IMG/VR virus record: IMGVR_UViG_3300035670_000174
Location: 1 to 64,000 of that record
Direction: 5' to 3' (one strand)
Length of the DNA: 64,000 bases
Origin: a virus
Shown here one piece after another: positions 8,720 through 47,009 of the stretch. Positions within the stretch are counted from its first letter, which is position 1; the number at the start of each line of letters is the position of its first letter. The notes under the pieces were generated by a model that searched no databases, had not been told where the DNA came from, and was given only the letters and a program-made list of their open reading frames with translations. Both the position numbers and the translations under genes were made by a program.

Positions 8720-9418
8720 ATGCAAGCTGCTCTATTCGTAGATCAATTAGAACAAGGTAATGAAGCAATGTTCCGCGCTTCAGAACTACAAGTTAAAGCA
8801 TATTTCGATTCAAAGCCATCAAAAGATGAGTTAATCGACCATTTTAAAGGTCGTATGGTTAACGAAAGAATGAACCTAATCGAAATTTCTGCTCAAATCG
8901 CTGCAGCACCTGCTGACGCAGATGTACAGCACTTAAATCTCCTTTCCAAACAAGCGCAAGACGAAGCCAAACATTTTCGTATGGTTAAAAATGTTATCGA
9001 GCATATCTCTGGTGAAAAACTAGACGTAGCTGCAGCTGTTGAAGAGCATTCTAAGAAATTAGACCAGAAGGGTGCTGCTCTTATTAAGAAATATGGCGCA
9101 GACAAAGATCCATTAATGCTAGCTGTATATCAGTTAATCGCTGAAGGTCGTGCTGCTCGTAACTGGAAAATGATGTCAGAGTGTATCGAAGATCAGTTTA
9201 TTGCTAAGACATATGCAAAAATTGCTCGCGATGAAAAGTTTCACTCAAGTATCGGTCGCAATGAACTTCTAAAACTTTGTGATGATCCAATTAATCAACA
9301 GAAAGTTATGGCTGTTGTTGACCAAATGCGTAAAGATCTATTCCTAATCACTTGTGCTAAATCTGGTATGAACCCAGAAAGCAAGAAGATTATGGAAGAT
9401 GCTTATGGTCCACTATAA
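8720..9418 (+). CDS. ferritin-like di-iron protein (paralogue 1)
   Basis: 232 aa, all-helical. Four conserved carboxylate/histidine sites fit a four-helix di-iron bundle: E50 region in MVNERMNLIE, DEAKHFRM (ExxH, near 90), AEGRAARNW (near 142) and RDEKFHSSIG (ExxH, near 172). This pattern is shared by PaaA/PaaC, ribonucleotide reductase beta and related oxygenases. Spacing and length look closer to small oxygenase-like ferritin-superfamily proteins than to RNR. Substrate unknown. A close paralogue follows 13 nt downstream, so the pair could form a heterodimer (compare PaaA/PaaC). No reductase gene is seen nearby. Confidence 0.72.
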   Translation: MQAALFVDQLEQGNEAMFRASELQVKAYFDSKPSKDELIDHFKGRMVNERMNLIEISAQIAAAPADADVQHLNLLSKQAQDEAKHFRMVKNVIEHISGEKLDVAAAVEEHSKKLDQKGAALIKKYGADKDPLMLAVYQLIAEGRAARNWKMMSECIEDQFIAKTYAKIARDEKFHSSIGRNELLKLCDDPINQQKVMAVVDQMRKDLFLITCAKSGMNPESKKIMEDAYGPL

Positions 9419-9431
9419 TAAGGAATCTAAA

Positions 9432-10160
9432 ATGACTTCAGGTAAACAGTTTGTTAAAGAATTAAAAGAGAGTTTTGAGACTCTTTATGGTGTAGCTGAT
9501 AAAACTACACGTGAGTATTTTGCTACCAATCCAAGCAAAGAGCAAATGCTTGCTTACTTTAAAATTCGTCTATTCAATGAGCGTTGGAACATGGTCGAAT
9601 TGAGCCAAGCAGTTGCTAATCTTCCACATGACACTCCAATGGAAGAAGCACAAATGTTAGCAAAACAAGCATACGATGAAGCAAATCACTTCCGTATGGT
9701 TAAAGAAGTTCTTGACCACATTGCTGGTGAAGAAGTTTCTGTTGCTGAAATTGGTAAAACACATGGTAAGAAAATGCCATCTCAGGGTGCTTATATTCTA
9801 GACAAGTATAATGCTCAGAATGACGAACTAGCACTATCACTATATCAGTTCCTAGCTGAAGGTCGTGCTGCAGTTGTTTGGCAAGCAATGGCTGAGTCAA
9901 TCCAAGATCCATATGTTGCTTCTCGTTATGCAAAGATTGCACGTGATGAAAAGTTCCACAGCAACATTGGTCGCCTAAAATTAGAAAAATTATGTGAGTC
10001 AGTTGAGAATCAAGAGCGCGCTAAGAAAATGGTTCAAAACTTTATTTGGGATCTTTATGAGAATACTTGTTTGTCTATCGCACAAGTTTCTGAAGAAGGT
10101 CGTGTTGCAATGAAACAAGCATATGGTCAACCAACTCGTGAGTTGTCAGTGGCTCTTTAA
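9432..10160 (+). CDS. ferritin-like di-iron protein (paralogue 2)
   Basis: 242 aa from ATG 9432, which has AAGGAA 8 nt upstream; the reading frame is open to 9399, but that start has no ribosome site and lies inside the previous gene. It aligns with its neighbour over the whole length: FNERWNMVEL, DEANHFRM (ExxH), AEGRAAVVW and RDEKFHSNIG keep all four predicted metal positions. Both copies seem active, so this is not a decayed duplicate. Likely partner of the first copy in one di-iron complex. Function unknown beyond the fold. Confidence 0.72.
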   Translation: MTSGKQFVKELKESFETLYGVADKTTREYFATNPSKEQMLAYFKIRLFNERWNMVELSQAVANLPHDTPMEEAQMLAKQAYDEANHFRMVKEVLDHIAGEEVSVAEIGKTHGKKMPSQGAYILDKYNAQNDELALSLYQFLAEGRAAVVWQAMAESIQDPYVASRYAKIARDEKFHSNIGRLKLEKLCESVENQERAKKMVQNFIWDLYENTCLSIAQVSEEGRVAMKQAYGQPTRELSVAL

Positions 10161-10175
10161 TATCATCATGTAGTT

Positions 10176-10727
10176 ATGAGAATTTTGATATCACAGAGGG
10201 AGGTCATTGTGCCTCCCTCATTTTTTACCTTTGATGCTTTGGAACGTAGTTGGTACACTTTGTTTAGTGAACACCAACTAATCCCAATCCCAAACATTTG
10301 CAAAATAGATCCAACTATTAATTATGACTGTTTAGTTCTAACAGGTGGTCCAGATAGTGTTGAAAGACACATCACTGAAAATCTCCATTTTAAATATGCA
10401 CTAAATCAAAACAAACCTATCATTGGGATTTGTCATGGTGCATTTGCAGTTAATGATTTAACTGGTGGTAAAAATGGTAAAGTAGAAGGACATTGGCAAA
10501 ACGATCATGCAATTTACATGGAAAACCAAGAATTTCTTGTGAATAGTTATCATGAACAGTCTATTGCAAGTATTGGTCCAGAAATGGTTGTCGTTGCAAC
10601 CGATGAAGAGTATAATATAGAAGCATTTAAACATAAGTCTAAACCAATTTTTGGGATTGTGTGGCATCCAGAAAGAATGGAAGTTCCAATTTTACCGATG
10701 GAGGTTAGACAACTACTGGGGATGTGA
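10176..10727 (+). CDS. class I glutamine amidotransferase (peptidase C26-like)
   Basis: 183 aa. The triad of class I amidotransferases is present: C86 in GICHGAF, and H164-x-E166 in WHPERM. LVLTGGPDS (54-61) is the oxyanion strand region. The N-terminus MRILISQREV with W26 and IPIPN (36-40) matches gamma-glutamyl hydrolase-like proteins found in surface-sugar and polyamine loci, so the ATG at 10176 is right although a terminator hairpin (10196-10226) lies in codons 7-17. No synthase domain is attached. It is coupled by ATGA to the TctA gene, so a shared role with the transporter is likely; the substrate is unknown. Confidence 0.8.
   Translation: MRILISQREVIVPPSFFTFDALERSWYTLFSEHQLIPIPNICKIDPTINYDCLVLTGGPDSVERHITENLHFKYALNQNKPIIGICHGAFAVNDLTGGKNGKVEGHWQNDHAIYMENQEFLVNSYHEQSIASIGPEMVVVATDEEYNIEAFKHKSKPIFGIVWHPERMEVPILPMEVRQLLGM
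10196..10226 (+). terminator. intrinsic terminator inside a coding sequence
   Basis: GAGGGAGG (10196-10203), 8-nt loop, CCTCCCTC (10212-10219), then A and six T (10221-10226). It is a textbook Rho-independent terminator placed 36 nt after the stop of the second di-iron gene, but it also forms codons 7-17 of the amidotransferase gene. Confidence 0.75.
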
Positions 10728-12157
10728 TGGAATATATTATTTGGTGTTTGATTGGTACATTATATGGAACACTAATCGGTGTTCTGCCAATGGCAGGTGC
10801 AACAACAGGACTATTGACAGTCTTTGCCCTCGCTCCATATTTTTTAGCAGATCCTTATCTTGGTATTGTCTTTATGACAAGTCTTGTAGCTGCATCTAGT
10901 ACAGGTGATAGTTACACGAGCATTCTCACAGGTATTCCAGGTGGAGGACAAACAGCTGCATCTATTATCGATGGTCACCCAATGGCATTACGAGGTGAAG
11001 CAGGAAGAGCGATTGGTATTTCTCTACTTGACAGCACAATCAATGGTGTTGTTTGGGGTATAATTGCATTTGCCTTTCTTCCATTTTATAGTAAAATAAT
11101 TTTATACTTTGGCGTTCCTGAGTTTGCTGCATTATTCTTGTTAAGTTTCTGTTGTGTTGGTATGTTAACGAGTAAGAATTTCTTTTATGGATTCCTTAGT
11201 GTAATTGTTGGATTGTATCTTGGATTGATTGGACTAGATCCAGGAACATCGTCTCCAAGACTAACATTTGGTTGGGATTATCTTGATTCTGGAATTCAGA
11301 TTCTTCCAATGATTGCTGGATTATTTGCCATTCCTGAATTGGTTGAAGGATGGAAACGTAGGCACTACGCTGTAGTAAAAATAGAAAATTACTACACACA
11401 ACTATTCCAGGGATTTAAAGACTGTCTTGTTTATTGGCGTGATGTTGTTCGTGGTGGATTCATAGGATTCTTCACTGGCATTCTTCCAGGTGCTGGTGGA
11501 ACTATCGGTGATATGATGTCATATTCTGTCACTGTTGCTAAAAACCCTAAAGAACAATTTGGAAATGGTAACCCAAGAGGACTAGCTGGATGTGAAGGTG
11601 CAAACAATGCACAGAAAACATCTTCGCTTTTACCAACAATATTATTTGGTGTTCCAGCTGCACCATTTGCAGCAGTGATGATGGCGATATGTGTTTATTT
11701 CGGTATGTATATGGGTAGTCCAGAATTAGCAACTGACACAAAGTTTATTTGGTCTATTGGTGCTAGTTTTATTGCTGCGACTATCATTACATTTATTCTG
11801 GGAATTTTTATCACTAAATATGTAGTGAAGATACTTGAGATTCCATATTGGATCTATGCAACAGGTATCCTCTGTATAGTTGTTTGGAGTTGCTTTCAAT
11901 ATACTGGAACTCTTAACGATTTATACATTTTAATTATGTGTAGTGTTGTCGGACTAGGTGCCAAATACTTACACTTAAGTAGACCTGCGATTTTGTTATC
12001 TTTCATTGTCGCAGAGAAATTTGAGAATTATGCCCAACAAGCATATACGTTGTATAGTATTGGTGATCTAATCCAACGACCACTAACAGTTGGGCTATTC
12101 TCATTGTGTTTGTTTATACTTTATTGGACAATACTAAGGAGAAAGCCAAATGTATAA
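10724..12157 (+). CDS. tctA: TctA-family tripartite tricarboxylate transporter permease
   Basis: 477 aa, very hydrophobic, about 11-12 membrane helices. The TctA signature is present: GATTGLLTVFALAP near 23-36 and TGDSYTSILTGIPGGGQTAA followed by DGHPMALRGEAGRA (near 64-100), with a second copy-like GILPGAGGTIGDM near 251. TctA is the large permease of the TTT system that imports tri- or dicarboxylates with a periplasmic TctC protein. Full length (family ~500 aa), no frameshift. It is coupled to the amidotransferase upstream and to a TctC gene downstream. The small subunit TctB is not visible on either side. Confidence 0.88.
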   Translation: MMEYIIWCLIGTLYGTLIGVLPMAGATTGLLTVFALAPYFLADPYLGIVFMTSLVAASSTGDSYTSILTGIPGGGQTAASIIDGHPMALRGEAGRAIGISLLDSTINGVVWGIIAFAFLPFYSKIILYFGVPEFAALFLLSFCCVGMLTSKNFFYGFLSVIVGLYLGLIGLDPGTSSPRLTFGWDYLDSGIQILPMIAGLFAIPELVEGWKRRHYAVVKIENYYTQLFQGFKDCLVYWRDVVRGGFIGFFTGILPGAGGTIGDMMSYSVTVAKNPKEQFGNGNPRGLAGCEGANNAQKTSSLLPTILFGVPAAPFAAVMMAICVYFGMYMGSPELATDTKFIWSIGASFIAATIITFILGIFITKYVVKILEIPYWIYATGILCIVVWSCFQYTGTLNDLYILIMCSVVGLGAKYLHLSRPAILLSFIVAEKFENYAQQAYTLYSIGDLIQRPLTVGLFSLCLFILYWTILRRKPNV

Positions 12158-13199
12158 GTACTTAATTGCAGCAGCACTCGCTGTTGTATCACTTACTGCT
12201 CGTGCAGAATATACTATGATTGTTCCAGATTCTCCTGGATCTGGTGGTGCAGTATGGGCATCAGTCATCGCTAAACATCTTAGCAAATACACAGACGAAC
12301 CAATCGTGTTGCAACATGTTCCAGGTGCACGCAATATTCCTGGAATGAATGAGTGGCATAAAAAGTTTCGTCATGATGATAAAACCATGGTAATTAGTCT
12401 TGGTTCACATGCAGTAAATTTTTTGCTCGAGCCAGTTGACTACAATTTTAGTGATTACTCTGTTATTGGTATGATGAATCTTGATTTGATAGTTGGTCAT
12501 AATAAAAATCATGATCCAAAAACACAGAAGTCTAAGATGGCAGGTGGTAATGCTCTAAACGATGCACTTGCTGTTGGTATTATGATTTGTGGTCCACAAC
12601 CAAATACTGATGCATATCTTGCTTGCTGGAAAGAGCGCATGACATGGGTTAATGGTGTTGCTGGAAATCAGATTCGACCAATGTATCTTCGTGGTGAAAT
12701 TAACGTGACACGTGATCCACCAACTTCTTGGATTCGTTTCTATGAGAAAGAACCAAATACAGTTGTTTGGTTTACGCATGGGTTGAAAGATCTAAAAACT
12801 GGTAAACAAATTGAAAACCCAAATTTCAAAGGTAAATTATTTGAAGATGTTTATAAGAAAACTTGGGGAGTATCACCATCTGGTGATTTGTTTGAAGCAT
12901 ATCATATGGCACGAACATTTAATAATGTTCTTCAAAAAGTTATTTGGGTTAACAAAGGTAATCCAAATGCAGAGAAACTTCGTGCTGCTATGAAAAAGAT
13001 GTTGGCTGATCCAGAGGCAGTTAAAGCGATTGAAGAAGACTCTGGAAAGTATGAATGGGTTGTTGGTGAACATGCTGATAAGATTCGCCAAGATCTATTC
13101 AAGATGATTACAGAAAAGAGATTGCAGACTCTCGTTCAGTGGTATCAAGGTGCTTACGGAACAAAGAGTGTATACAAACCTGAATTAGTCACAAAGTGA
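12150..13199 (+). CDS. tctC: TctC/Bug-family periplasmic solute-binding protein
   Basis: 349 aa. A Sec signal peptide covers residues 1-19 (MYKYLIAAALAVVSLTARA). The mature part starts YTMIVPDSPGSGGAVWA, the phosphate-loop-like ligand motif of Bug/TctC proteins, and VLQHVPGARNIPGMN matches the family's second motif (PGAgg..g). Bug proteins bind carboxylates or amino acids and hand them to TctA/TctB. Its overlap with tctA by 8 nt suggests coupled translation. Ligand class cannot be read from the sequence. Periplasmic export from a phage gene implies function in the infected cell. Confidence 0.82.
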   Translation: MYKYLIAAALAVVSLTARAEYTMIVPDSPGSGGAVWASVIAKHLSKYTDEPIVLQHVPGARNIPGMNEWHKKFRHDDKTMVISLGSHAVNFLLEPVDYNFSDYSVIGMMNLDLIVGHNKNHDPKTQKSKMAGGNALNDALAVGIMICGPQPNTDAYLACWKERMTWVNGVAGNQIRPMYLRGEINVTRDPPTSWIRFYEKEPNTVVWFTHGLKDLKTGKQIENPNFKGKLFEDVYKKTWGVSPSGDLFEAYHMARTFNNVLQKVIWVNKGNPNAEKLRAAMKKMLADPEAVKAIEEDSGKYEWVVGEHADKIRQDLFKMITEKRLQTLVQWYQGAYGTKSVYKPELVTK

Positions 13200-13780
13200 T
13201 AAAACATTTAGGTAGATTTGAAGGTGATTGGCAAGATGCTATGGCTTCGGTCGTAGCATCTGCTATTCCAGCTACATGGGAAACAGTTCGATACTGGAGA
13301 GTAAAAACTTCAGTTGGTCAAATATTAGATTTACCATCACCAGATGGCAAGAAAGAAGAAGATCATATTGCTGATGCAGGAGGTGATAAAAATTTAGTAT
13401 TGACTAATATGGAACATGATATTCATCCAGTGTTTCAGGAAATGATTGATGAGATTGGACTTGAAAACTCTTATAATAGAATCCATGTGCAATGGACTGG
13501 TCAGGTTTTTAATTGGCATAAAGATAAACTAGCAAGATACAATCGTGATGACCCAAGTAAAGTTTTGCGTGTTGTGGTTATGTTAACTGATTATATTCCT
13601 GGACATTTTTATCAGTATAACGATCAAATGTATACAGGATGGAAAGCTGGAGATGTTCACACATTTGATTGGCAGACAGATTACCACTGCACTGCCAATG
13701 CAAGTTTAATGCCAAGAGTTAGTTTAGTGACTACTGGTGTTATTAGTGATAAGACTAAACAGTTTTTATATGATAAATAG
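13196..13780 (+). CDS. 2OG-Fe(II) oxygenase-like protein
   Basis: 194 aa. NWHKDKL (H108-x-D110), YHCTANASLMPRVSL (H164 and R174) give the facial triad and 2-oxoglutarate ligand of the double-stranded beta-helix; GWKAGDVHTFDW is the strand before the distal His. Substrate unknown. The start is a GTG overlapping the TGA of tctC (GTGA), the only start that keeps the N-terminus. Being fourth in the amidotransferase-TctA-TctC chain suggests that it works on, or uses, the imported compound. Third such oxygenase in the window and dissimilar to the other two. Confidence 0.75.
   Translation: MIKHLGRFEGDWQDAMASVVASAIPATWETVRYWRVKTSVGQILDLPSPDGKKEEDHIADAGGDKNLVLTNMEHDIHPVFQEMIDEIGLENSYNRIHVQWTGQVFNWHKDKLARYNRDDPSKVLRVVVMLTDYIPGHFYQYNDQMYTGWKAGDVHTFDWQTDYHCTANASLMPRVSLVTTGVISDKTKQFLYDK
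13773..13779 (+). promoter_or_regulatory. possible late promoter for the tmRNA
   Basis: ATAAATA overlapping the stop codon of the preceding gene. With the 6-nt spacing seen elsewhere, transcription would begin at about 13786, exactly where base-pairing evidence puts the 5' end of the tmRNA acceptor piece. Confidence 0.45.
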
Positions 13781-13785
13781 ATTTA

Positions 13786-13848
13786 TTGCTGTATGAAGCA
13801 ATGAGAAAAGTGTTCTGGACGAGGGTTCGATTCCCTCCACCTCCACCA
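13786..13848 (+). ncRNA. ssrA: two-piece tmRNA, acceptor (3') piece
   Basis: T arm GAGGG-TTCGATT-CCCTC (13821-13837) is followed by the acceptor strand CACCTCC and an encoded ACCA ending at 13848. The acceptor strand pairs base for base (one G-U) with GGGGGTG at 13987-13993 of the coding piece. TGCTGT (13787-13792) complements ACAGCA (14029-14034) and GTTCTG (13812-13817) pairs with CAGGGC (14006-14011), as expected for helix 2. The 3' half therefore lies upstream of the 5' half: the circularly permuted gene order known in alphaproteobacteria and some other lineages. The exact 5' end is estimated. Confidence 0.85.
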
Positions 13849-13859
13849 AAAGGAATTTT

Positions 13860-13985
13860 ATGAGTAATTTATTGCTTGGATTATTAATTATAGGTTTGCA
13901 TGGTTATTGGATTTACAAACTTGTGACATATGATTGGAGTCAGTATGATGAAGATCAGAAGCAATTAGATGAAGATTTCTTTTGA
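13860..13985 (+). CDS. 41-aa membrane peptide encoded between the tmRNA pieces
   Basis: ATG 13860 to TGA 13985, with AAAAGGAA 6 nt upstream. The product starts MSNLLLGLLIIGLHGYWIYK, a hydrophobic helix, and has a very acidic tail ending QLDEDFF. The ORF fills almost the entire segment between the mature CCA end (13848) and the mature 5' G of the coding piece (13987). Whether it is translated from the precursor before processing is unknown. The clean ribosome site, membrane helix and snug fit argue for a real gene. Confidence 0.6.
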   Translation: MSNLLLGLLIIGLHGYWIYKLVTYDWSQYDEDQKQLDEDFF

Positions 13986-13986
13986 T

Positions 13987-14161
13987 GGGGGTGACTAGGT
14001 TTCGACAGGGCAAGTAGTAACAGAGTGGACAGCACGGTAGGCGATCTCCGTAAAAGAAGCAAAACTATAAATGCAAATGACGCATTTTTCGGAGAAGTTC
14101 GCTTAGCAGCGTAACCTCCGTGGGGTTTCGGTGACTGTCCTTATTACCCAATCAGTCACCA
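13987..14161 (+). ncRNA. ssrA: two-piece tmRNA, coding (5') piece
   Basis: Begins GGGGGTGACTAGGTTTCGAC, the conserved 5' end of tmRNA. The tag frame resumes at GCA 14073 and runs to TAA 14112-14114, encoding ANDAFFGEVRLAA, which has the usual AND start and the LAA degron end recognised by ClpXP. A hairpin GGTGACTG/CAGTCACC (14130-14137/14153-14160) followed by a T-rich run closes the piece; it may be either the last helix of the mature RNA or a terminator. tmRNA with SmpB rescues stalled ribosomes. No smpB gene is in the window. Confidence 0.88.
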
Positions 14162-14176
14162 CTATTTTTTATTTTT

Positions 14177-15374: not shown

Positions 15375-15890
15375 ATGCAAAAACGATTTTATATCGTCAT
15401 TTCGTTATTTCTAATTACATTATTAATCTTTATAATTGCGTTAGTGCCAAAAACAAAAATTATAGAGATAAACTATTCTCAATTAACCAAAGAAGGTAAG
15501 GCACAAGTAGACTGCTTAGCAGAAAACATTTACCACGAAGCAGCATATGAACCTATTAATGGTAGAATTGCTGTTGCGCTCGTTACAATGAATCGCGTAA
15601 ACGATCCAAGATATCCAAATAATATTTGTTCTGTAGTGAAACAAAGGATAAAATATACATGTCAGTTCTCTTGGTATTGTGAGCGAAACAAACATATAAG
15701 AAATTATAATGCATATCTAGAAGCGCAAAGAATTGCGTTACATGTATATGCGAATTACGAATCACTAAAGGATTTAACTGGTGGTGCGTTGTTTTATCAT
15801 GCAGATTATGTCCAACCTAATTGGCGCAATCTGCAAAAAACTGCAGTTATCGGAAGACATATTTTTTATAAAGAAAGAAATCCATTATGA
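15375..15890 (+). CDS. SleB/CwlJ-type cell wall hydrolase (Hydrolase_2)
   Basis: 171 aa. An N-terminal membrane anchor (residues 6-25) precedes a SleB-like domain: DCLAENIYHEA (E50 as catalytic acid), INGRIAVALVTMNRV, FSWYCE and GGALFYHADYVQPNW near 133-146 follow the family order. SleB-type enzymes are lytic transglycosylases on peptidoglycan. The anchor suggests action in the periplasm from the inner membrane, which could assist lysis alongside the GH19 endolysin. A TAAGGAG site precedes the ATG. Overlaps the ClpP-like gene by 4 nt. Confidence 0.8.
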   Translation: MQKRFYIVISLFLITLLIFIIALVPKTKIIEINYSQLTKEGKAQVDCLAENIYHEAAYEPINGRIAVALVTMNRVNDPRYPNNICSVVKQRIKYTCQFSWYCERNKHIRNYNAYLEAQRIALHVYANYESLKDLTGGALFYHADYVQPNWRNLQKTAVIGRHIFYKERNPL

Positions 15891-16444
15891 TGAATAAATT
15901 AAATCTTCAATTAAAAGAAGACACGTCTCAGCATTCGTTTTATCTTTTAATGGAAGATATTTCGTTAGCATCTTGTAAGAATGTAGTTGAATGGATCTTC
16001 GAAGCAAATTTCTCTGAAGAACGACCAGATATGTTAAATCTTATCATTACTTCTCCAGGTGGTGATTTGAATGCTGCTTTTGCAGTTATAGACACTATGC
16101 GTGGCTCTGCTATTCCTGTTCGTACAATCGGACTAGGTCAAATTGCTTCTGCTGGTTTAATGATTTTTATTGCAGGCAGTAAAGGTAAAAGAATCCTTAC
16201 ACCAAATACTTCTATCCTCAGTCATCAATATACTTGGGGTGCGTTTGGTAAAGAACATGAGTTATTCGCTACAGTGAAAGAATTTGATTTAACTACCAAG
16301 AAAATGATTGCTCATTATAAAAGATGCACTGGATTATCTGAAGCAAAAATTCGTGAAATTCTTTTGCCACCACAAGATATGTGGTTGAGTCCACCAGAGG
16401 CTAAGAAATTAGGAATTTGCGATGATATTAAAGAATTATCTTAA
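15887..16444 (+). CDS. clpP: ClpP-like serine protease
   Basis: 185 aa. The ClpP fold is clear: SPGGDLNAAFAVIDTMR (56-72), the nucleophile S88 in GQIASAGLM, H113 in ILSHQYTW and D164 in PPQDMWLS form the triad. The handle region is present. It is slightly shorter than bacterial ClpP (~195-207 aa). Phage ClpP-like proteins are either capsid maturation proteases or ClpP paralogues; the lack of a scaffold fusion and the location away from head genes favour a stand-alone ClpP-like peptidase. Two adjacent ATGs are available; the first overlaps the hydrolase stop. Confidence 0.82.
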   Translation: MMNKLNLQLKEDTSQHSFYLLMEDISLASCKNVVEWIFEANFSEERPDMLNLIITSPGGDLNAAFAVIDTMRGSAIPVRTIGLGQIASAGLMIFIAGSKGKRILTPNTSILSHQYTWGAFGKEHELFATVKEFDLTTKKMIAHYKRCTGLSEAKIREILLPPQDMWLSPPEAKKLGICDDIKELS

Positions 16445-45798: not shown

Positions 45799-47009
45799 TG
45801 GCAGTCATTTTCTTAAGAAGCACTAAAGGTAGCCCTTTAACTATTGCCGAAGCAGATGCTAACATCAACAACCTAAACACTGAGTTAGGTGGTAAGTTAG
45901 ATATAACATCTTACACTGCAACAGATGTGCTTGCAAAAATTTTATCAGTCGATGGTGCTGGTTCTGGTTTAGACGCAGATAGAGTGCAGGGTAAAAATAT
46001 TGCGTCAACTAACACCAATAACACTCTGGTATTAAGAGACTCATCTGGTAATTTTGCAGCAACTACTGTTACCGCAAATTTAGTCGGTAATGTTACTGGA
46101 AATATTACAGGTAATGGTATCGGTACATGGACAGGTACTGCAACTAATGTCAGTGGCGTGGTTACTGTGGAGCATGGTGGTACTGGTGTAACAACAGTAG
46201 ATGCTATTAAAACATTATTGTCTATTGGAAATATGGCTTCTCAAAACTCTGCCAGCGTTAATATTACTGGTGGAAATATTACAGGCATCAATCCAATTGA
46301 TGTTTCTAGTGGTGGTACTGGAGCAAGTTCTGCTACTATCGCCAGAATTAACTTGGGTCTAAATATTGGTACTGATATTCAAGGTTTTGCGCCAATTTTA
46401 TCTTCCATCTCTGCACTATCTAACAATGGTGTCGTAGTTAAAACTGGTTCTGGTACTTCAACTACAGCAGCGCTTGTTGCTGGCACAAATATTAATATCA
46501 CTAACAGTGATTTTACTGGTGGTAATCCAACAATATCATTAATTTCTAGTCCTGCTTTAACAGGAACTCCTACTGCGCCAACTGCAGCTGCTGGAAATAA
46601 TACTACACAAATCGCAACTACAGCGTTTGTTAAATCTGCAGTAGATACAGGTGATGCTGCTCAACAAGTTTATACTGATAATAAGTTTAATTCTGTAGTT
46701 GGTTTAGCTAAAGCATGGGTTGTGTTTAACGGATCTGATGGTTCTATTTTAGCAAGTAATAATGTAAATAGTGTCACATCAAATGGTGCAGGTCAGTACA
46801 CAATTAATATCGCTTCTGGAACATTTAGTAATGCAAACTTTGTAGCGTTTGGTATGTGCGGTGGTGGTGGAACAACAGCAGGAAGATTTATGACATTCGT
46901 CAATTCTAGTGCTACTGCTTTAGTTGTCTACACACTAACAGCAGCATTTAGTGGTGGTACTGTAGCAGGCGTCAATAATGGTGTTGTTCGAGTTGCAATG
47001 TTTAACTAA
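45798..47009 (+). CDS. tail fibre protein
   Basis: 403 aa. N-terminal attachment-like segment (FLRSTKGSPLTIAEADANIN), phage fibre repeats (TLVLRDSSGNFAATTVTANL, VEHGGTGVTTVDAIKTLL, SSGGTGASSATIARINLGLN), and the PTAPTAAAGNNTTQIATTAF motif followed by VKSAVDTG, typical of tail-fibre shafts. The last ~110 residues form a separate tip domain. TAATG coupling with the upstream gene. Confidence 0.8.
   Translation: MAVIFLRSTKGSPLTIAEADANINNLNTELGGKLDITSYTATDVLAKILSVDGAGSGLDADRVQGKNIASTNTNNTLVLRDSSGNFAATTVTANLVGNVTGNITGNGIGTWTGTATNVSGVVTVEHGGTGVTTVDAIKTLLSIGNMASQNSASVNITGGNITGINPIDVSSGGTGASSATIARINLGLNIGTDIQGFAPILSSISALSNNGVVVKTGSGTSTTAALVAGTNINITNSDFTGGNPTISLISSPALTGTPTAPTAAAGNNTTQIATTAFVKSAVDTGDAAQQVYTDNKFNSVVGLAKAWVVFNGSDGSILASNNVNSVTSNGAGQYTINIASGTFSNANFVAFGMCGGGGTTAGRFMTFVNSSATALVVYTLTAAFSGGTVAGVNNGVVRVAMFN

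Follow-up and report, generated by a model that had tools for sequence, protein, structure and literature searches.

Introduction

Two-piece, circularly permuted ssrA genes are known in phages, Methylophilales phage Melnitz being an example (PMC9004378). The spacer of one permuted tmRNA holds a tRNA gene and that of another a repetitive element, and group I introns of tmRNA genes carry LAGLIDADG endonuclease ORFs (PMC11915505). For permuted pre-tRNAs, removal of the spacer by RNase P and 3'-end enzymes has been proposed (PMC3978253). Our search of the literature on permuted and two-piece tmRNA, outside of which the founding two-piece papers lay, did not turn up any account of such a spacer harbouring a protein gene.

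The locus described here is part of a stretch of 64,000 nucleotides (the window) from a T4-like phage, whose virus record comprises 67,959 bases and whose terminase is closest (~50% identity) to those of Melnitz, marine viruses and cyanophages. A preliminary description of the window, made from its letters, had proposed that a permuted tmRNA gene encloses an ORF for a small membrane peptide and that processing and translation of the precursor may be linked.

Results

The permuted tmRNA gene and its neighbours

The proposed split, circularly permuted tmRNA gene was confirmed by RF04321, RF01850 and ARAGORN. The RF04321 match covers positions 13787-14114 and the full model (1-213) with 143.6 bits (E 2.9e-28), RF01850 matches 13753-14171 with 105.7 bits, and the ARAGORN call at the locus is 'tmRNA*'. 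The acceptor piece lies upstream of the coding piece, the acceptor strands pair, and the tag reading frame at 14073-14114 ends in the proteolysis tag ANDAFFGEVRLAA. An encoded CCA (13846-13848) closes the 3' piece, and GGGGGUG at 13987 opens the 5' piece. The coordinates of the preliminary description hold throughout, and the helices named in it all pair, TGCTGT at 13787-13792 with ACAGCA at 14029-14034 and GTTCTG at 13812-13817 with CAGGGC at 14006-14011, the latter including two G-U pairs. By analogy with permuted tmRNA in general, the intervening segment (IVS, or spacer) is expected to be excised during tmRNA maturation. The features of the locus are listed in Table 1.

Table 1. Positions in the window of the features at the permuted tmRNA locus and the basis of each assignment.
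Feature	Position	Strand	Basis
194-aa gene, no Pfam match	13196..13780	+	ORF list; the tmRNA 3' piece follows after a few bases
tmRNA 3' (acceptor) piece, T arm and encoded CCA	13787..13848	+	RF04321, ARAGORN; start is the first model position
Whole intervening segment (IVS), 138 nt	13849..13986	+	Between mature ends from RF04321 and acceptor pairing
5' strand of acceptor-stem extension helix (AAAGGAAUUUU), holds SD AAGGA 13850-13854	13849..13859	+	Covariation, fold
41-codon ORF, ATG to TGA, fills the IVS; conserved peptide with predicted hydrophobic helix	13860..13985	+	Homologues in place, pN/pS 0.27, AlphaFold
3' strand of extension helix, overlaps last ORF codons	13972..13982	+	Pairing, covariation
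tmRNA 5' (coding) piece, tag frame 14073-14114 (ANDAFFGEVRLAA)	13987..14160, end approximate	+	ARAGORN, RF01850

For the 194-aa gene and the tmRNA region that follows it, no terminator-like site was found and promoter-like sites occurred at chance level; judged from the sequence, the two are probably on one transcript. Positions 10724-13199, directly upstream of the tmRNA region, hold an unusual host-like transport cassette, in which a TctA-family transporter gene (Pfam PF01970, E 1e-99) is followed by a 349-aa gene with no Pfam match, a putative periplasmic solute-binding partner by its signal-like start. Two adjacent genes at 8720-10160 with the similar motifs EANHFRMVK and EAKHFRMVK, one of them weakly DUF455-like (E 5e-4), are possibly a tandem pair of ferritin-like proteins. 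On the downstream side, a ClpP-family protease gene (15887-16444; Pfam PF00574, E 1e-28) follows the tmRNA gene at a distance of under 2 kb. Proteins carrying tmRNA tags are sent to ClpP-type proteases, and this neighbourhood may therefore be meaningful.

A protein gene in the spacer

The 41-codon ORF with its own Shine-Dalgarno (SD) sequence, which the preliminary description had placed in the IVS, was recovered as such; it encodes the peptide MSNLLLGLLIIGLHGYWIYKLVTYDWSQYDEDQKQLDEDFF, and its stop codon TGA stands one base ahead of the mature tmRNA 5' end. The treatment of the spacer as coding was borne out as well, in that the peptide is conserved at exactly this position with dN/dS well below 1. 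Homologues keep frame, length and start, and among eight distinct IVS copies pN/pS was 0.27 in the ORF frame versus 0.90 and 1.46 in the other two. The closest pairs, which had diverged while in the IVS, amounted (sums by hand) to ~9 synonymous changes in ~105 sites versus 8 non-synonymous changes in ~510. These substitution patterns show that the window ORF encodes a protein and that purifying selection has acted on it in its spacer position.

AlphaFold predicted two helices for the window peptide, a hydrophobic one at residues 2-23 and a charged one at 26-40 (pLDDT 92). For this family the likeliest place of action would be the membrane of the infected cell. Searches of PHROGs and Pfam with the peptide returned nothing significant, and no convincing relatives were found in cultured phages (two weak matches, E 0.6). 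The earlier picture of a single membrane peptide stands as regards the predicted helical fold with a hydrophobic first helix, but as a description of the site it is too narrow, because many unrelated small ORFs, many of them without a hydrophobic stretch, share this position.

Relatives inside and upstream of the tmRNA gene

A scan for permuted genes with spacers of 120-150 nt detected the same ORF at the same place in other phage tmRNAs, and a search with the peptide alignment yielded 23 loci carrying the window family (family A). At 14 of the 23 the ORF is in the IVS (L278-L281, L283-L287, L294-L297 and L299; some near-identical), and at eight it is a separate gene that ends just before the tmRNA 3' piece (L282, L288, L289, L291, L292, L293, L298 and L300), the contig of L289 stopping before its tmRNA is complete. 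At L290 the gene is found elsewhere, not beside the tmRNA; in all other family A loci scanned with Rfam a permuted tmRNA adjoins the ORF. Separate-gene copies end in TAA or TAG, whereas every IVS copy uses the TGA that belongs to the conserved UNUGAUGG leader, and this stop usage also marks the ORF as a real gene. Besides its upstream family A gene, L298 carries a different ORF of 63 aa in its spacer. The T arm is unusual in the tmRNA 3' pieces of L279, L280, L281 and L283-L285, where, for example, GGGGGCAGTGCCC replaces GGGTTCGATTCCC; in L279, L281 and L283 ARAGORN finds no tmRNA, yet RF04321 scores 86-103 bits.

Four families, A, J (MFENWHW), B and that of L141, show such alternation, each being represented by spacer copies and by a small gene directly upstream of ssrA. 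Family J ends in AGTCTTTTTGACAACGTGAAAGAGTAA as an upstream gene and in AGTCTTTTTGATGGGG in its spacer version, and a short TTTTTGA stretch at the junction is common to the two versions, which suggests that they were joined at that stretch.

A recurrent gene site

With the 3' piece as its sole anchor, a scan found at least 56 permuted genes in IMG/VR loci, nine of which had an ATG-started spacer ORF. In the same scan the spacer ORF of L061 started with TTG and was a homologue of that of L114, and four other TTG-started spacer frames were without homologue support. When several scans were pooled and spacers of at least 75 nt were clustered by sequence, an ORF beginning 8-16 nt past the CCA and open as far as the spacer end was present in 17 of 56 clusters among the matches listed, compared with 1.8 expected from dinucleotide shuffles (maximum 6), and the starts piled up at offsets 8-15 from the CCA. 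A scan anchored on the SD, for which CCA-N-AAGGA-N3-6-ATG plus the 5' leader was required and an open frame was not, gave 56 of 59 distinct spacers open to the end among the matches listed, versus 7.7 expected; two of the three exceptions are open from a TTG, as read from the printed sequence. These figures from the collection scans are motif-anchored or refer to the matches listed, and are distinct from population frequencies.

By our count, at least about 30 unrelated small-ORF families occupy phage IVSs, nearly all of them starting 8-16 nt past the CCA; the peptides measure 22-63 aa. Short hydrophobic peptides are represented by the window family and by MT(R/W).., MDPEVKYQY.. and MKTPD.., and other peptides include the tryptophan-rich MFENWHW family, a zinc-finger-like CxxC...HxC type and soluble ones, a good part of the ORFs at the site being without a hydrophobic stretch. 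In three further families in-frame pN/pS was 0.35, 0.38 and 0.44, below the values of their other frames; in family B it was 0.64-0.70, which with few sequences is weak by itself. The IVS peptides scanned from the other families gave no PHROGs or Pfam match above the curated cut-off, and for family J no relatives were found in cultured phages. Small genes of unrelated families are maintained at this very position by many related phages, so that the spacer of permuted tmRNA is, on sequence comparison, a gene site in use, and apparently an undescribed one.

Spacers of another class (L006, L019, L020, L124, L131 and L148) share a protein-like stretch that is conserved, WYYTENEWSRLG..PERN; its reading frame stays open across the acceptor piece and the spacer into the 5' piece, and it may represent either a fragment of a gene or an ORF that overlaps the two halves of the tmRNA. 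In the spacer region of the permuted tmRNA match in L140, the stretch that separates a CTCCACCA from the tmRNA 5' piece contains a tRNA-like element, with TTCCAA in its anticodon-loop region, together with a second piece resembling an acceptor.

A helix shared by the precursor and the start signal

The acceptor stem runs on through the CCA into the spacer, where positions 2-11 pair with the bases just before UGAU. In the window this extension helix comprises 10-11 base pairs with the AUG at its loop end. Its ten pairs are nearly all kept in 42 ORF-bearing spacers, with many compensatory changes. Among 26 family representatives 248 of 260 cells pair, versus 186 when the letters of the 3' strand are reshuffled, and sliding the partner strand by one or two bases removed nearly all of the pairing excess. 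Non-coding spacers form the same helix from other bases; its primary role is therefore probably in the tmRNA precursor, and it need not have evolved for translation control.

In ORF spacers the SD is usually on the 5' strand and the last codons on the 3' strand, and the AUG is at or next to the helix end. An SD 4-mer was present in 25 of 40 unique ORF spacers and the motif was absent from the others. In folding predictions for the window, the SD (13851-13855 as computed) was about half open (0.42-0.55) in nascent RNA extending as far as 13975 and was shut (0.00) in RNA extended to 13986. For the folded precursor the AUG was predicted to be largely unpaired (0.84), and the helix of acceptor stem plus extension was assigned -24.7 kcal/mol. 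An SD that is buried, on covariation and predicted folding, in the conserved helix capping the acceptor stem lends new support to the suggested link between translation and processing.

Discussion

Proposed translation and maturation of one transcript

The spacer of this permuted ssrA gene contains a small gene, and from the sequence patterns and the folding predictions we consider it rather probable that the transcript is translated briefly and then folded and processed. The polycistronic transcript would be translated from an open SD during transcription of the ~120 nt that precede the closing strand. Once ribosomes clear the spacer, the extension helix would form and initiation would be shut off. 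With the helix closed, the acceptor stem would be offered to RNase P and to the 3'-end enzymes, which would remove the spacer and leave a two-piece tmRNA, one transcript thus serving as a brief mRNA first and as tmRNA thereafter. The occurrence of the helix in non-coding spacers, the ORF spacers that have no SD motif, the loop position of the SD in Melnitz and the failure to find close relatives of the window peptide in cultured phages count against this reading. It is rather doubtful that the pre-tmRNA is moreover bifunctional, in the sense that ribosome loading would exclude folding and processing, tmRNA output would track initiation capacity and, in families whose frame crosses the cut, maturation would itself make a nonstop message for the new tmRNA.

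The main rival to brief translation followed by processing is compaction only, to which we give a little less than an even chance. Here the spacer would be free space in a tightly packed T4-like genome, small genes would have been captured in it by local recombination, and the peptide would come from the common transcript, its translation and the maturation of the tmRNA being functionally unconnected. The diversity of unrelated peptides at the site, hydrophobic and not, agrees with this, as do the same families adjoining ssrA as ordinary genes and the TTTTTGA that the spacer and upstream forms of family J share at the junction. An SD that lies nearly always inside the processing helix would, however, be a cost without a benefit; yet any ORF filling the spacer must start there, and the point is not decisive. 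Capture could also have been so recent that the ORF is no longer translated inside the spacer. Separate-gene copies do exist, but the preponderance of synonymous changes in the close pairs that diverged within the IVS, together with the SD and start kept at the helix end in many families, makes such an inert copy very improbable. A chance ORF has a negligible probability: most phage spacers are non-coding, but codon selection, homologous separate genes and the 56 of 59 open frames speak against it, and it was ruled out by selection and open-frame statistics.

Another possibility is an arfA-like feedback, in which the RNase P cut would leave an ORF message with a terminal stop codon or none, and the new tmRNA would tag and clear this by-product. 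The stop is at the very end in the window family and missing in the run-through families; in J, K, L and others the frame continues beyond the RNase P site and enters the 5' piece. There is a precedent in the arfA mRNA, which is without a stop codon and repressed by trans-translation (PMC10107115). The window ORF nevertheless has kept a stop codon, the ORFs of several families close with TGA ahead of the cut, and the register between frame and cut site varies even among members of family J, so that we consider this feedback improbable.

An origin from a host bacterium was considered and rejected: in ~85,000 species genomes the pattern with a 120-150-nt IVS had nine matches, and ARAGORN found a tmRNA in two. 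One of the two is Achromobacter, with a non-coding spacer; the other, L307, lies on a MAG contig that is phage-like by its genes. This contig (CALMJT010000228.1), binned in an Alteromonadales MAG, has a permuted tmRNA with a 37-aa spacer ORF and is probably misbinned. In a control within one bacterial order, five of 150 genomes were above the model cut-off, and it says little beyond Achromobacter.

Relation to known systems

The cultured phage Melnitz has, in the spacer of its own tmRNA (locus L344:5985-6437, equal to MZ577097.1 45984-46436), a candidate ORF (MFKWLSKTRLVVITRDYFRERNRKADAKIPKYLSGTRSVYDGG.../MFKWLSKTRLVV..., from record position 46096 onward), which has a GGAG site, reads into the 5' piece and is without divergent relatives; its SD is in the loop, not in the helix. 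The Melnitz record annotates the tmRNA only, and locus tags 87 and 88 are missing there. The spacer of permuted tmRNA, described as absent from the mature RNA and left unannotated, is in many phages the site of conserved micropeptide genes, with start signals that share bases with the precursor helix. Small phage proteins are thereby hidden from annotation, the Melnitz candidate being an example, and the site offers a testable case of translation and RNA maturation competing on one transcript.

With the alpha, beta and cyano forms of permuted tmRNA (RF04321) and with that of Melnitz, the window gene shares gene order, acceptor pairing, CCA, tag frame and an aquatic phage setting. In the available part of PMC9004378 the spacer is an intervening sequence absent from the mature tmRNA and no protein gene is mentioned, whereas the window spacer carries one. 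Spacers with a tRNA gene or a repeat likewise house a feature, but these are single cases and not a recurrent class of protein genes as found here (PMC11915505). The ORFs of group I introns (PMC11915505) also are protein genes inside a removed tmRNA segment. Such introns are self-splicing, sit in the T-loop and encode a homing enzyme, whereas Rfam gave no intron match in the window, and Pfam and PHROG no endonuclease match among the IVS peptides scanned. The spacers of circularly permuted tRNA genes in algae and archaea measure 1-74 nt, and the accessible part of PMC3978253 mentions no ORF in them. In size and in its predicted hydrophobic helix, the window peptide is compatible with a membrane toxin of a type I toxin-antitoxin system. 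Finally, the feedback between arfA and tmRNA (PMC10107115) likewise involves a small gene, the message of which may have no stop codon and be dealt with by tmRNA; arfA, however, is a separate gene, whereas the small gene of the window is nested in the tmRNA precursor.
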